Shown: positions 2,118 through 33,641 of the stretch, one piece after another
How the letters are laid out: every line of letters starts with the position of its first letter
Numbering within the stretch: position 1 is the stretch's first letter
Assembly (NCBI GenBank): GCA_018645005.1
Contig: JABGPJ010000094.1
Coordinates: 1 to 37,199 of the forward strand
Direction: 5' to 3'
Source of the DNA: Deltaproteobacteria bacterium
GTDB taxonomy: Bacteria > SAR324 > XYD2-FULL-50-16
Length of the DNA stretch: 37,199 bases
Notes under the pieces: generated by a model
What the model saw: the letters and a program-made list of their open reading frames with translations, nothing else
Databases searched by the model: none
What the model was told of the DNA's origin: nothing
Program-made: the position numbers and the translations under genes

Positions 2118-2274
2118 TCTCCATATGAAACTTCAAATCTTCTCTCGCAGTTCAGGGCATAAATCAGATCTATTTTTATTTAAAAAGCTTTTTACTCGAT
2201 GGATCAAACCCAAATCCAGGATCATTTACACATTAATGAATAGACCCTGGCTTTTTGGAATTTTTCAACACTTA

Positions 2275-2468
2275 GGGATCGTTCAAAAATAACTTCACAT
2301 AATCTATTTGCAAAAGTCCTAAAAACACTGGACATTTTTCAAACAGAATGTGACAGCAACGTGTTTCTTTTTCAGGCAACGTGTTTCTTTAACGCCAATG
2401 AGAAACACTTGATTAATGAGAAATACTCGATTAATGAGAAACACTCAACTAATTTTTTAGCCGATCCC
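2275..2468 (-). mobile_element. Miniature palindromic element, long (type B) copy 1 with 2 left-arm and 3 right-arm repeat units
   Basis: GGGATCGTTCAAAAATAAC...TTAGCCGATCCC ends; internal GTGTTTC / GAAACAC repeats; six related copies in the window. Confidence 0.8.
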
Positions 2469-2637
2469 TAAGTGTTTTTTTTTAAAAAATTAGGGTATTT
2501 CACTGATTGTGAAATTTGTGTTGAACTGCGATAACGTATCAAGATGGAACTTTCTCTATAAACCAGCCCTGATTCAAATTCACTCTCTGAAATGACTGGA
2601 CATCAGTTCTTAATGGTAACACTGGCATCGAACGTAA

Positions 2638-2812
2638 GGGATCGTTCAAAAATAACTCTACATAATCTGTTTTCAAAAGTCCTAAAAACACTGGACATTT
2701 TGCAAACAGAATGTGACCGCAACGTGTTTCTTTTTCAGGCGACGTGTTTCTTTAACGCCAATGAGAAACACTTGACTAATGGGAAACACTTGACTAATTT
2801 TTGAGCCAACCC
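2638..2812 (-). mobile_element. Miniature palindromic element, type B copy 2 (2 left-arm and 2 right-arm units)
   Basis: GGGATCGTTCAAAAATAAC...TTTTTGAGCCAACCC, flanked by TAA on both sides. Confidence 0.8.
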
Positions 2813-2886
2813 TAAGTCCTTTATTACAATAATAGTCATACCAGATTATCATGATTCAATCCGATATTTGACATCAGCAAACGCCT

Positions 2887-10527: not shown

Positions 10528-10626
10528 GGGTCGGCTCAAAAATTACTTGGCATTCTGTCGGCAAAATGTCCAGTCTTTTGGGGGCTTTTGCGGACAGATT
10601 ATGTAAAGTTATTTTTGTACGATCCC
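10528..10626 (+). mobile_element. Miniature palindromic element, 99-bp type A copy
   Basis: GGGTCGGCTCAAAAATTACTTGGCATTCTGTCGGCAAAATGTCC...TTATTTTTGTACGATCCC; flanked by TAA on both sides. Confidence 0.85.
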
Positions 10627-13493: not shown

Positions 13494-13592
13494 GGGTCGG
13501 CTCAAAAATTAATTGGCATTCTGTCAGCAAAATGTCCAGTCTTTATGGGACTTTTGCGGACAGCTTATGCCAGGTTATTTTTGTACGATCCC
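13494..13592 (+). mobile_element. Miniature palindromic element, 99-bp type A copy
   Basis: GGGTCGGCTCAAAAATTAATTGGCATTCTGTCAGCAAAATGTCC...TTATTTTTGTACGATCCC. Confidence 0.85.
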
Positions 13593-23823: not shown

Positions 23824-23960
23824 GGGATCGTACAAAAATAACTTTACCTAATCTGTCCGCAAAAGTCCCTAAAAGACCGGACATTTTGCAGACAGAATGT
23901 TAAGTCAACGTGTTTCCTTTACATCAATGGGAAACACTTGAGTAATTTTTGAGCCGACCC
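23824..23960 (-). mobile_element. Miniature palindromic element, type B copy 3 (1 left-arm and 1 right-arm unit)
   Basis: GGGATCGTACAAAAATAAC...TTTTTGAGCCGACCC flanked by TAT on both sides. Confidence 0.82.
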
Positions 23961-23987: not shown

Positions 23988-24224
23988 TAGCAATGTCCGG
24001 TTAGGTTTTTGCAACATGAAAGCTGAACGATAAAACCAGTCTCTCAGCATAAGGATTCAAAGATGTTCTAAGTTTGCTTCACGAAAAACCGCCAAACTCG
24101 CTCGTACCTCGCTCAAACATGGCTCATTTTCGCTACGCTGAACTAAGAACATCTAAAAATCCTCATAAGTTCGATCCAGGCTTCATCATTCAACTTTGTG
24201 CAAAAACCTAACCGGACATTGCTG
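23988..24224. mobile_element. 237-bp miniature inverted-repeat element with 9-bp target duplication
   Basis: Ends TAGCAATGTCCGGTTAGGTTTTTGCA / TGCAAAAACCTAACCGGACATTGCTG; ACCAGGGAT at 23979-23987 and 24225-24233. Confidence 0.88.
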
Positions 24225-26620: not shown

Positions 26621-26693
26621 GGGTCGGCTCATAAATTTTTTATTAACGATCCCAATGCAGACAGATTATGTGACGTTATTTCTGAACGATCCC
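26621..26693 (+). mobile_element. Miniature palindromic element, shortened 73-bp copy
   Basis: GGGTCGGCTCATAAATT...CAGACAGATTATGTGACGTTATTTCTGAACGATCCC. Confidence 0.75.
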
Positions 26694-26696
26694 TAA

Positions 26697-26945
26697 GCCA
26701 ATTGGTTTATTGGTAATCTGAAGACACCCATGGATTATGGGTTAGCCGCAACCTTGAAGCAGATAAAAAAAGCCATGGATTATCAGACCGTGAAAAAATG
26801 GCTGTATAGCGAGAAAAAAAGGGTGCACGAGAACAGTGCAAAATACCTGGGGGTTGGACATGCATCCCCATTGAAATCATCGGCCCCAACGGACCACCCT
26901 GTATTAATTGAACCGAATACGGACAGGAATTATCAAGATGAGTGA
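26697..26945 (+). pseudogene. Truncated NosL-like C-terminal fragment (paralogue of NosL-like 3)
   Basis: ANWFIGNLKTPMDYGLAATLKQIKKAMDYQTVKKWLYSEKKRVHENSAKYLGVGHASP vs ANWVYGDTKTPMGYGFAATLKPVKNPMPFKMVKKWMYIGKTLVRENTAKHLGLKHQSP. Confidence 0.85.
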
Positions 26946-30643: not shown

Positions 30644-33586
30644 TTAACGTGACGACTCAGCCAAAGATTTGCTGGCTTCATTCACCAGATTCAAAATAGA
30701 GCGATAAGGGATACCACCGTGCAAAGCCAGGCCGATTTCGCAGGTAATACTGGTGGAATAGCCCACGTCGCACGTGTCGACCTGTTGTTTTAATTGACCT
30801 AACGCGCTTGCATTTAATTCAGGAAAGTTGAATCCTCTGTCACCGGCAAATCCACAGCAATACAGGTCATCAGGCACCACGACCTCTTTTGCACAGAGTC
30901 GGGCGAGTTCCACGATTTGGCTATCCAATCCCATTTTCCTGGAAGAACAGGTCAGGTGCAGTGCAATTTTCCTGTCCAATGGTTCAAATCGCAGACGCTT
31001 TGTTAAAAACGTCAGCACAAATTCAAGCGGCTCAAACAACTGCAAGCGATTGTCAGGTTCCTGCTTCATCCTGTACAAACAGGGACTGGTGTCACACATG
31101 ACGGGAATCTGTCCCTCATCAGAGGTAATCCATAATTGCTTGAACAGTTCAGAGCGTTTTTGATCTGCCAAATCCATAAATCCCTTGGATTCATACACCT
31201 GACCACAGCATAGATGTTCTAATTCTTTTGGAAAGATGACTTCGTAGCCGGCTTTGTTTAACAATTTAATCGTCGTTTGCGGTAACGCATCGGTTTCAAC
31301 AGATCCTTTGGGAGGGCCGCTCATTGACCTGCTGGCACAACTGGGGAAATAAACCACTTTTAAAGGATTGTCTGGATTGATCAACTCCTGGCGGATTCTG
31401 GGGACTCCTGATGGCATCTCCTCATTCCAGCTGGGAATGCGTTGGCCCGAGATGGATCTGGCGATTTTTGCAGCACTCTTCATTAATGGTGTGCCGGCTA
31501 TCTTGTGAAGCCTGTTGACCATAGACACAAAGACATTGGCTGCTTTTGAAACCGTACTAAAATGAGAACCCGTCCACCCGGCAATTTTATTGGCAAAATC
31601 ACTTTTGGCTTCCTGTCTCAGATGCTTGACCAGTTTACCCGTATCAATTTCAACAGGACAGCGGGTGCCGCACAAACCATCGGTTGCGCAGGTATCGCTT
31701 CCAGGATACGTGTAGGATTTTATTAATTGCGCAATGTGATTGGAGTCTTTTTTGAGACGCATCAGTCGGCTGATCTCCCGTCGTCCGACAATCCGCTGTC
31801 GAGGGGTGAAGGTCAGATCTTTTGAAGGGCAGATCGGTTCGCAAAACCCGCATTCTGTGCACCTGTCCACGATTTCATGGGTGGAAGGCATCGGTTTCAG
31901 ATTTTTGAGATGGATTTGTTTATCATCGTTCAGGATCACGCCCGGGTTTAGCAGATTAGCTGGGTCAAAGATCGATTTTATCGCTTTCATCAACTTAAAT
32001 GCCGTTGACCCCCACTCTTTTTCAACAAAGGGAGCCATATTGCGACCGGTTCCATGTTCTGCTTTCAAGGACCCGTCATAGCGGGCTACAACCAGGTCGA
32101 CGACATCCTCCATCAAATTGCGATAACGGGTCACTTCCGCTTTGCTCGAAAAATCCTGGGTAAAAACAAAATGAAGATTTCCTTCCAGGGCATGTCCAAA
32201 AATAATGGCCTCGTTGTAGTCATATTTGGAGAACAGATCTTGTAAATCCAGGGCGGCAGAGGCGAGATGCGCTATTGGAAAAGCCACATCCTCTATAATG
32301 ACGGTAGTCCCTATTTCACGCATAGCTCCCACGGCTGGAAACAGTCCTTTACGAATATTCCAGAGAACTGCATATTCGTCTGCTACATCGGTAAATTGAA
32401 TCGGGCGCAGGGACTCTAAAACGTTTAAGGTCGACGTGATGCGACGGGTCTGTTCGTCCAGTTCAGTTTGACTACTGGCTTGCGTTTCCACTAACAGCGC
32501 TGTGACGGTGGGCCCAAGCGTCTTTAAATAATCCGGCAACCCTTCTTTGTGTTCGACAGATTTCAGGCTGGCCCGATCCATCAATTCCGCAGCAGCGACC
32601 GGTTCCGGCTTCAACAGAGGAATAGCCTGGCAGGCTGTTTTCATGTCGGGGAAAAGAATCAAGGTGCTGGCTTTAAACGAGTGTTCCGTGACGGTTTTAT
32701 AGATGACTTCGGAAATGAATCCCAGGGTCCCTTCGGAGCCGATCAGCAGGTGTTGCATGATTTCAAAGGGATCTGCATAGTCCACCAGGGCGTTCAGGCT
32801 GTAGCCTGAGGTGTTTTTGATCTTAAATTTGTGACGGATTCGTGCTGCCAGTTCTATATCAGTCAAAACCTGGTTTCTAAGGTCTGAGAGACCGGTCAGA
32901 ATATCGCCGTGAATCTGCTGGAAGGATTGACGGCTTTGCGGGTCAGCGGTATCAACTACGCTCCCATCAATCAAGATGATCCGCATGCTGTCTATGGTCT
33001 GGTAACTGTTCTGTGCAACACCGCAGCACATACCACTGGCATTATTAGCCAGTATTCCGCCAATTTTAGCCGTATCAATCGAAGCGGGATCCGGACCGAT
33101 TTTTTTCCCGTAAACTGCCAGCCAGCGATTCGCCTGACCACCGATGATTCCGGATTCAAGCTTAATTTTATTAGCGTTTTCAAGAATTTGATAGTTTCGC
33201 CAACCCAATCCTAATCGCACCAGGATACTGTCGGTAATGGACTGGCCGGACAGGCTGGTGCCAGCAGCTCGAAAAGTGACGGCGAGTCTCAGACGATTGG
33301 CACATTTAAGCAATTCCACCACCTGATCTTCGTTTTCAATGTTGACAACGATTTTAGGTATCAGTCGATAGAAACTGGCATCGGTACCATAGGCGAGGGT
33401 CCAAAGTGGGGAGGTGATGATATTTGTTTTTGGGATAAATTGCTCAATTTCCTTTTGAAATCGTTCATAGGGATCGTACAAAAATAACTTGGCATAAGCT
33501 GTCCGCAAAAGTCCCTTAAAGACCGGACATTTTGCTGACAGAATGCCAAGTAATTTTTGAGCCGACCCATAGGCTGCAGGCAGCAT
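30644..33586 (-). CDS. FAD-linked oxidase with C-terminal Fe-S / CCG domains (D-lactate/glycolate dehydrogenase-like)
   Basis: FRAAGTSLSGQS and GSEGTLGFISEV FAD-binding motifs; CTECGFCEPICPSKDL, CATDGLCGTRCP; CCG-type cysteine motifs (LCCGQVYESKG, YCCGFAGDRG). Confidence 0.9.
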   Translation of the reverse strand: MLPAAYGSAQKLLGILSAKCPVFKGLLRTAYAKLFLYDPYERFQKEIEQFIPKTNIITSPLWTLAYGTDASFYRLIPKIVVNIENEDQVVELLKCANRLRLAVTFRAAGTSLSGQSITDSILVRLGLGWRNYQILENANKIKLESGIIGGQANRWLAVYGKKIGPDPASIDTAKIGGILANNASGMCCGVAQNSYQTIDSMRIILIDGSVVDTADPQSRQSFQQIHGDILTGLSDLRNQVLTDIELAARIRHKFKIKNTSGYSLNALVDYADPFEIMQHLLIGSEGTLGFISEVIYKTVTEHSFKASTLILFPDMKTACQAIPLLKPEPVAAAELMDRASLKSVEHKEGLPDYLKTLGPTVTALLVETQASSQTELDEQTRRITSTLNVLESLRPIQFTDVADEYAVLWNIRKGLFPAVGAMREIGTTVIIEDVAFPIAHLASAALDLQDLFSKYDYNEAIIFGHALEGNLHFVFTQDFSSKAEVTRYRNLMEDVVDLVVARYDGSLKAEHGTGRNMAPFVEKEWGSTAFKLMKAIKSIFDPANLLNPGVILNDDKQIHLKNLKPMPSTHEIVDRCTECGFCEPICPSKDLTFTPRQRIVGRREISRLMRLKKDSNHIAQLIKSYTYPGSDTCATDGLCGTRCPVEIDTGKLVKHLRQEAKSDFANKIAGWTGSHFSTVSKAANVFVSMVNRLHKIAGTPLMKSAAKIARSISGQRIPSWNEEMPSGVPRIRQELINPDNPLKVVYFPSCASRSMSGPPKGSVETDALPQTTIKLLNKAGYEVIFPKELEHLCCGQVYESKGFMDLADQKRSELFKQLWITSDEGQIPVMCDTSPCLYRMKQEPDNRLQLFEPLEFVLTFLTKRLRFEPLDRKIALHLTCSSRKMGLDSQIVELARLCAKEVVVPDDLYCCGFAGDRGFNFPELNASALGQLKQQVDTCDVGYSTSITCEIGLALHGGIPYRSILNLVNEASKSLAESSR
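33470..33568 (-). mobile_element. Miniature palindromic element, 99-bp type A copy inserted in frame in the FAD-linked oxidase gene
   Basis: Same 99-bp element as at 10528 and 13494; flanked by ATA on both sides (TAT in the coding sense). Confidence 0.85.
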
Positions 33587-33641
33587 AAAAGCCTCTTCAA
33601 TAATAATCGATCAATCATTTGGTTTCATTTTGTCCAATAAT

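Follow-up and report, generated by a model that had tools for sequence, protein, structure and literature searches.

In-frame fusions of MITE-like repeats to bacterial genes are already established for Rickettsia palindromic elements (RPEs), enterobacterial RU repeats and the QMITEs of Coxiella. About half of all RPE copies lie in open reading frames (ORFs), where the peptide that they specify is conserved (PMC10969869; Ogata et al. 2000 as reviewed there). Enterobacterial RU/ERIC-type repeats are MITE-like and mostly intergenic, with an incidental ORF and occasional in-frame fusions; RU-3 measures 103 bp and has a 34-residue ORF and a hairpin of -44.2 kcal/mol (PMC2759123). The QMITE1 and QMITE2 families of Coxiella burnetii, with some 50 copies, occasionally extend a gene in frame, as for the 33 C-terminal residues of EnhC in one strain (PMC5896051).

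Here, we describe a 99-bp palindromic element that lies in frame in a dehydrogenase gene, in a stretch of 37,199 nucleotides (the window). It is highly likely to be a MITE, a non-autonomous DNA transposon with many copies in one lineage, probably moved in trans by an IS5-like transposase, whose insertion appears to have been tolerated and whose peptide is probably functionless. Like the RPEs, it is a short palindromic, non-autonomous repeat with many copies in one lineage, stop-free in the frame of the fused protein. The two differ in several respects: the MITE is 99 bp long with clear 3-bp target-site duplications (TSDs), whereas RPEs are about 150 bp; its host belongs to a different phylum; about 1% of the examined copies are in genes, compared with nearly half for RPEs; and it shows no sign of a conserved peptide. 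RU/ERIC-type repeats differ in sequence and host, and for the dehydrogenase fusion both empty site and TSD are demonstrated. The QMITEs are likewise MITEs with occasional in-frame gene extension, though of another family, and the dehydrogenase insert is N-terminal with the frame running through it rather than terminal. The family described here works like ordinary MITEs. The fusion provides a clean case (empty site, TSD, family census) of a conserved metabolic enzyme extended by a peptide from a bacterial MITE. It is also a counter-example to regarding all fusions of this sort as RPE-like, the control being some 200 sister copies. The family further attests a recent MITE burst, confined to one lineage, in a bacterium with SAR324 as its nearest named relatives.

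Host gene and insertion point

The features of the locus are as follows.

33590-33597, minus strand: Shine-Dalgarno-like GAAGAGG, about 5 nt upstream of the ATG (sequence; start region not occluded by the hairpin)
30644-33586, minus strand: FAD/4Fe-4S/CCG dehydrogenase gene with the element in frame within it (ORF and Pfam; NCBIfam)
33569-33586, minus strand: six native start codons, MLPAAY, codon 6 being the first TSD copy (identical in L034 and L036)
33569-33571, minus strand: upstream TSD copy, TAT in sense (sequence and orthologue comparison)
33470-33568, minus strand: 99-bp palindromic MITE, GGGTCGGCTC...GTACGATCCC, with the gene-frame peptide GSAQKLLGILSAKCPVFKGLLRTAYAKLFLYDP (sequence, fold)
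33467-33469, minus strand: downstream TSD copy, TAT in sense (sequence and orthologue comparison)

The dehydrogenase ORF (33586-30644) encodes 980 residues and is open throughout, free of stops and frameshifts. Pfam identifies FAD_binding_4, FAD-oxidase_C, Fer4 (4Fe-4S) and CCG domains, all intact despite the element, and the protein is a GlcD + GlpC-like fusion, an FAD-linked oxidase/Fe-S dehydrogenase. It scores under all NCBIfam equivalog cut-offs and therefore carries no precise enzyme name; among solved structures, subunits of glycolate oxidase and of LctD-type lactate dehydrogenase are its best relatives. The nearest named relatives of the gene come from a MAG of an unclassified bacterium (81%) and from one of the SAR324 cluster (69%), which suggests that the host belongs to SAR324.

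The borders of the element read CCTAT/GGG...CCC/TATGAA, with TAT as a direct repeat on both sides. Element and duplication together add 99 + 3 = 102 bp, or 34 codons, behind codon 6, and these precede the FAD domain. The interval 33470-33586, marked out in the sequence-only reading, comprises the element, the TSD and the six native codons; the gain of exactly 34 codons proposed there is confirmed, as are the open frame, the start codon and the RBS-like GAAGAGG.

That reading also held that removing the element and one TAT restores the native N-terminus, and such an empty site exists in the DNA of a same-genus orthologue. In L034 (81% identity) the site is uninterrupted, ATGCTGCCTGCAGCCTATCAACGATTTC, and the protein reads MLPAAY/QRFQKDIEQF. 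Set side by side, L034 is ATGCTGCCTGCAGCCTAT/CAACGATTTCAAAA and the gene studied here is ATGCTGCCTGCAGCCTAT/99 bp/TAT/GAACGATTTCAAAA. An N-terminal alignment with orthologues had been proposed as a check, and all 76 orthologues that carry the DASFY motif have the short N-terminus: the start codon lies 31-39 residues ahead of DASFY in 76 of 76 and exactly 34 residues ahead, with ATG, in 57. The same distance in the window gene is 68, or 34 + 34, an excess that equals the inserted codons. An element-free orthologue with the same N-terminal peptide, which would have spoken against an insertion, was sought among them with a negative result.

Translation start and fate of the gene

The sequence of events can be outlined as follows. 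A transposase acting in trans would have inserted the MITE at a C-TAT-G target behind codon 6. Given the 102-bp gain and a stop-free copy in the phase of the gene, the dehydrogenase frame stayed open with 34 codons added. Survival of the insertion is probably owed to its short length, its in-frame phase and a dispensable N-terminal position, and the enzyme presumably retains its activity. The AlphaFold model of the 980-residue protein is poor (pTM 0.41, 18 sequences); pLDDT values below 50 for residues 1-34 would be compatible with an unstructured add-on but prove nothing.

The gene could instead be on its way to being lost, an incipient pseudogene that has lost expression or activity through the hairpin or the added N-terminal residues, its frame still open only because the insertion is recent. 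The hairpin does begin only 19 nt inside the coding sequence, and the element is recent, its nearest copies being 96/99 identical. Against this, all 980 codons are free of stops and frameshifts, every domain is intact, and the initiation region is not occluded: opening the start region costs 10.4 kcal/mol with the element and 11.5 kcal/mol without it, so that both forms are equally accessible. A terminator search of the element region gave no call. We consider loss of the gene unlikely. With an intact RBS and ATG and an accessible start region, ribosomes most likely start at the native ATG and read through the element.

A displaced start is an alternative to such read-through. Codons 20 and 29 of the element (positions 27 and 36 of the protein) are in-frame TTGs, the first of them with AAGGGA just upstream, so the protein might begin inside or after the element. 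A start at the TTG 35 codons in, for example, would give MYDPYERFQK and leave 33 residues before DASFY, near the native 34. TTG is a weak start codon, however, and the hairpin, which is very stable, has both TTGs in its 3' half, neither with a well-spaced Shine-Dalgarno sequence, while the native ATG with its good Shine-Dalgarno sequence is intact and conserved (MLPAAY is identical in L034 and L036). A shift of the start is thus distinctly unlikely.

Structure and census of the family

The window contains six further copies.

2275-2475, minus strand: longer degenerate copy with internal repeats of about 18 bp, outer limit approximate (sequence)
2638-2820, minus strand: longer degenerate copy with internal repeats of about 18 bp, outer limit approximate (sequence)
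10528-10626, plus strand: 99-bp MITE copy, TSD TAA/TAA (sequence)
13494-13592, plus strand: 99-bp MITE copy, flanks TTA/TAA (sequence)
23824-23960, minus strand: copy of the 137-bp subtype, of frame-breaking length (sequence)
26621-26697, plus strand: short degenerate copy with both ends and a shortened middle, limits approximate (sequence)

All three type A copies are 99 bp long and open in the same frame, as first read; in the two at 10528-10626 and 13494-13592, stops occur only within the flanking TSDs. The palindrome is near full-length, with arms of about 45 bp each. As RNA it folds at -48.6 kcal/mol (z = -9.4), and none of 200 shuffles does as well. Its longest frame is 33 residues, and it contains no transposase gene. 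Across 75 distinct copies, base pairing is kept in 95% of cells. The arms covary by subtype through compensatory changes, with TTGGCA/ATGCCA in one and TTCACA/ATGTGA in another.

In the genome assembly (3.28 Mb, 189 contigs, 68% complete) the right end is matched 219 times and the left end 212 times, or about 215 copies, whereas reversed control patterns are matched nowhere. Within the genome stretches taken around copies, 201 separate places fit a profile of the 99-bp form. Intact sizes are mostly 99 bp (78 copies) and 137 bp (19 copies), the latter being the commonest length among the longer variants. No copy was found in 51 other genomes of the phylum, the same genus included, and none in viral contigs or plasmids. 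The elements are short, without a transposase gene, bounded by terminal inverted repeats and TSDs, multi-copy and dispersed, as is expected of bacterial MITEs. The family is new, and it has undergone a recent, lineage-restricted burst.

The long variants in the window (2272-2475, 2635-2820 and 23824-23960) differ in how often they repeat an 18-bp unit, AGTCAAGTGTTTCTCATT, and have another segment in place of the left arm. Tandem pairs spaced exactly 102 bp apart, with one TSD in common, are seen at C37:1134-1332 (L244 513-711), C11:42950-43150, C140:18484-18616 and C183:5491-5623. Because the two copies on contig C37 belong to different subtypes, these pairs suggest repeated insertion at a duplicated target rather than local duplication.

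Target sites and proposed mobilising enzyme

Identical 3-bp flanks are present in 61 of the 99-bp copies: TAA in 37, TTA in 16, TAT in 6 and AAA in 2. TAA or TTA thus accounts for 53/61 identical TSD pairs, and the consensus of empty sites is C-TWA-G. IS1031-group IS5 elements make a 3-bp TSD with a preference for TNA (PMC12016507), from which, in its strict form, the TAT and AAA duplications depart. The target preference suggests that the MITE is probably moved in trans by a transposase of the IS5 family (IS1031-like), though no such IS was found in the 68%-complete genome. Pairing left with right ends at an IS-like distance gave no parent in this assembly, and the MITE ends GGGTCGGCTCAAAAATTA / GGGATCGTACAAAAATAA matched no IS found there. 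A PF01609 profile search produced a single match, on C37, to a different IS with CCGGTTAA-type ends. PF13586 and PF13737 matched nothing in the assembly; for PF13737 the control gave no match either.

Copies occur at the TAA stop of an adjoining ORF more frequently than expected, in 9/61 clean copies compared with about 1.2 under a target-site model (P ~0.004 among non-genic sites, with crude gene models). Examples are C151:14902, C132:14769 and C98:12144, and the stop codon is regenerated by the TSD.

Genomic positions of the copies

Location was assessed with crude gene models for the 96 near-complete copies that have 900 bp or more on each side. Between genes lie 71 copies, at a stop codon 13 and inside ORFs 12, whereas random AT-rich target triplets nearby would place about 68 of the 96 inside ORFs. 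Inspection of the 12 copies within ORFs leaves two as real: the dehydrogenase copy and C60:10017. The remaining ones precede plausible native starts or sit in ORFs open by chance. The choice of stretches was not random, as many were picked for an element open in the dehydrogenase frame, which should favour in-frame fusions. Even so, the dehydrogenase copy is the sole read-through of a real gene among the 96, one further copy ends within the last codons of a gene, and some 94 fall outside genes or at a stop codon. The fusion looks like one in-frame insertion that the gene tolerated, a rare case to have survived selection against insertions into genes.

At C60:10017-10115 a copy lies close to where a sensor-like gene (by eye, 7TM/LytTR-like) has its 3' end; the frame of this gene runs five codons into the element before a stop, with the last residues replaced. 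Long frames around copies on C92 (563 residues), C131 (633 residues), C62 (about 480 residues) and C100 (279 residues) were rejected by eye as gene insertions. The element either precedes a plausible native start (of PriA-like, acyl-CoA carboxylase-like or histidine kinase proteins) or falls in an antisense frame that is open by chance; four of these judgements on native starts come from recognition of the protein rather than from alignment.

Coding capacity of the element

The frame used by the dehydrogenase gene is open in about 59-60 of the 77 intact copies and closed by stops in 18; frame +3 is open in 50. Minor-base frequencies at codon positions 1, 2 and 3 over the 77 copies are equal (0.093, 0.112 and 0.103). 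Distinct substitutions comprise 86 non-synonymous, 35 synonymous and 6 stop changes, compared with 85.4, 34.0 and 7.6 expected by redistribution. When substitutions are counted per copy, stops number 20 versus 47 expected, but shared ancestry and composition inflate these counts, and the deficit is absent from the distinct-substitution count. The copies preserve the palindrome, and their covariation tracks the hairpin and not the codons. With no codon-position signal and with covarying arms, the open frame looks like an incidental by-product of a short palindrome, and the 33-codon peptide itself is probably functionless.

These data bear on two readings in which the element is suited to proteins. 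In the first, the 102-bp (34-codon) unit, with its open frames and its preference for TAA, where stops are regenerated, would spread among and into genes with little damage, feeding new N-termini to proteins outside Rickettsia; we regard this as improbable. The second takes the element for an RPE-like protein-coding palindrome, adapted to genes, its length and frame kept for tolerance by host proteins and its peptide under selection. It can draw on the divisibility of 99 + 3 by three, on the 59/77 intact copies open in the dehydrogenase frame and on one clear in-frame gene fusion. In opposition stand the single copy in 96 that reads through a recognisable gene, the neutrality of substitutions towards the frame, the openness of frame +3, the arm covariation that tracks the hairpin, and the common 137-bp subtype, which with its TSD amounts to 140 bp and would shift the frame. 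The RPE-like reading is highly improbable. The family lacks two defining features of RPEs, frequent residence in ORFs and a conserved peptide; the resemblance noted in the sequence-only reading holds for form, a short palindrome in frame in a gene, and fails for behaviour (1/96 copies passing through a gene, no conserved peptide).

Finally, an assembly chimera of two loci joined at a repeat is exceedingly unlikely: 99-bp repeats at about 200 copies are a classical source of metagenome misjoins, but here the flanks are adjoining halves of one orthologue gene and the TSD is intact, which a misjoin would not give. The preferred reading remains insertion of a MITE that the gene has tolerated.

A second repeat family

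Another MITE-like family is about 235 bp long, has perfect inverted ends of 25 bp, AGCAATGTCCGGTTAGGTTTTTGCA, and occupies window positions 23989-24223 and also 3-51 (partial, inverted). It has about 40 or more copies in the genome, and its flanks share ACCAGGGAT, suggesting a duplication of 9-10 bp. Its ends resemble the CCGGTTAA ends of the lone DDE_Tnp_1 IS on C37, which is a possible parent.
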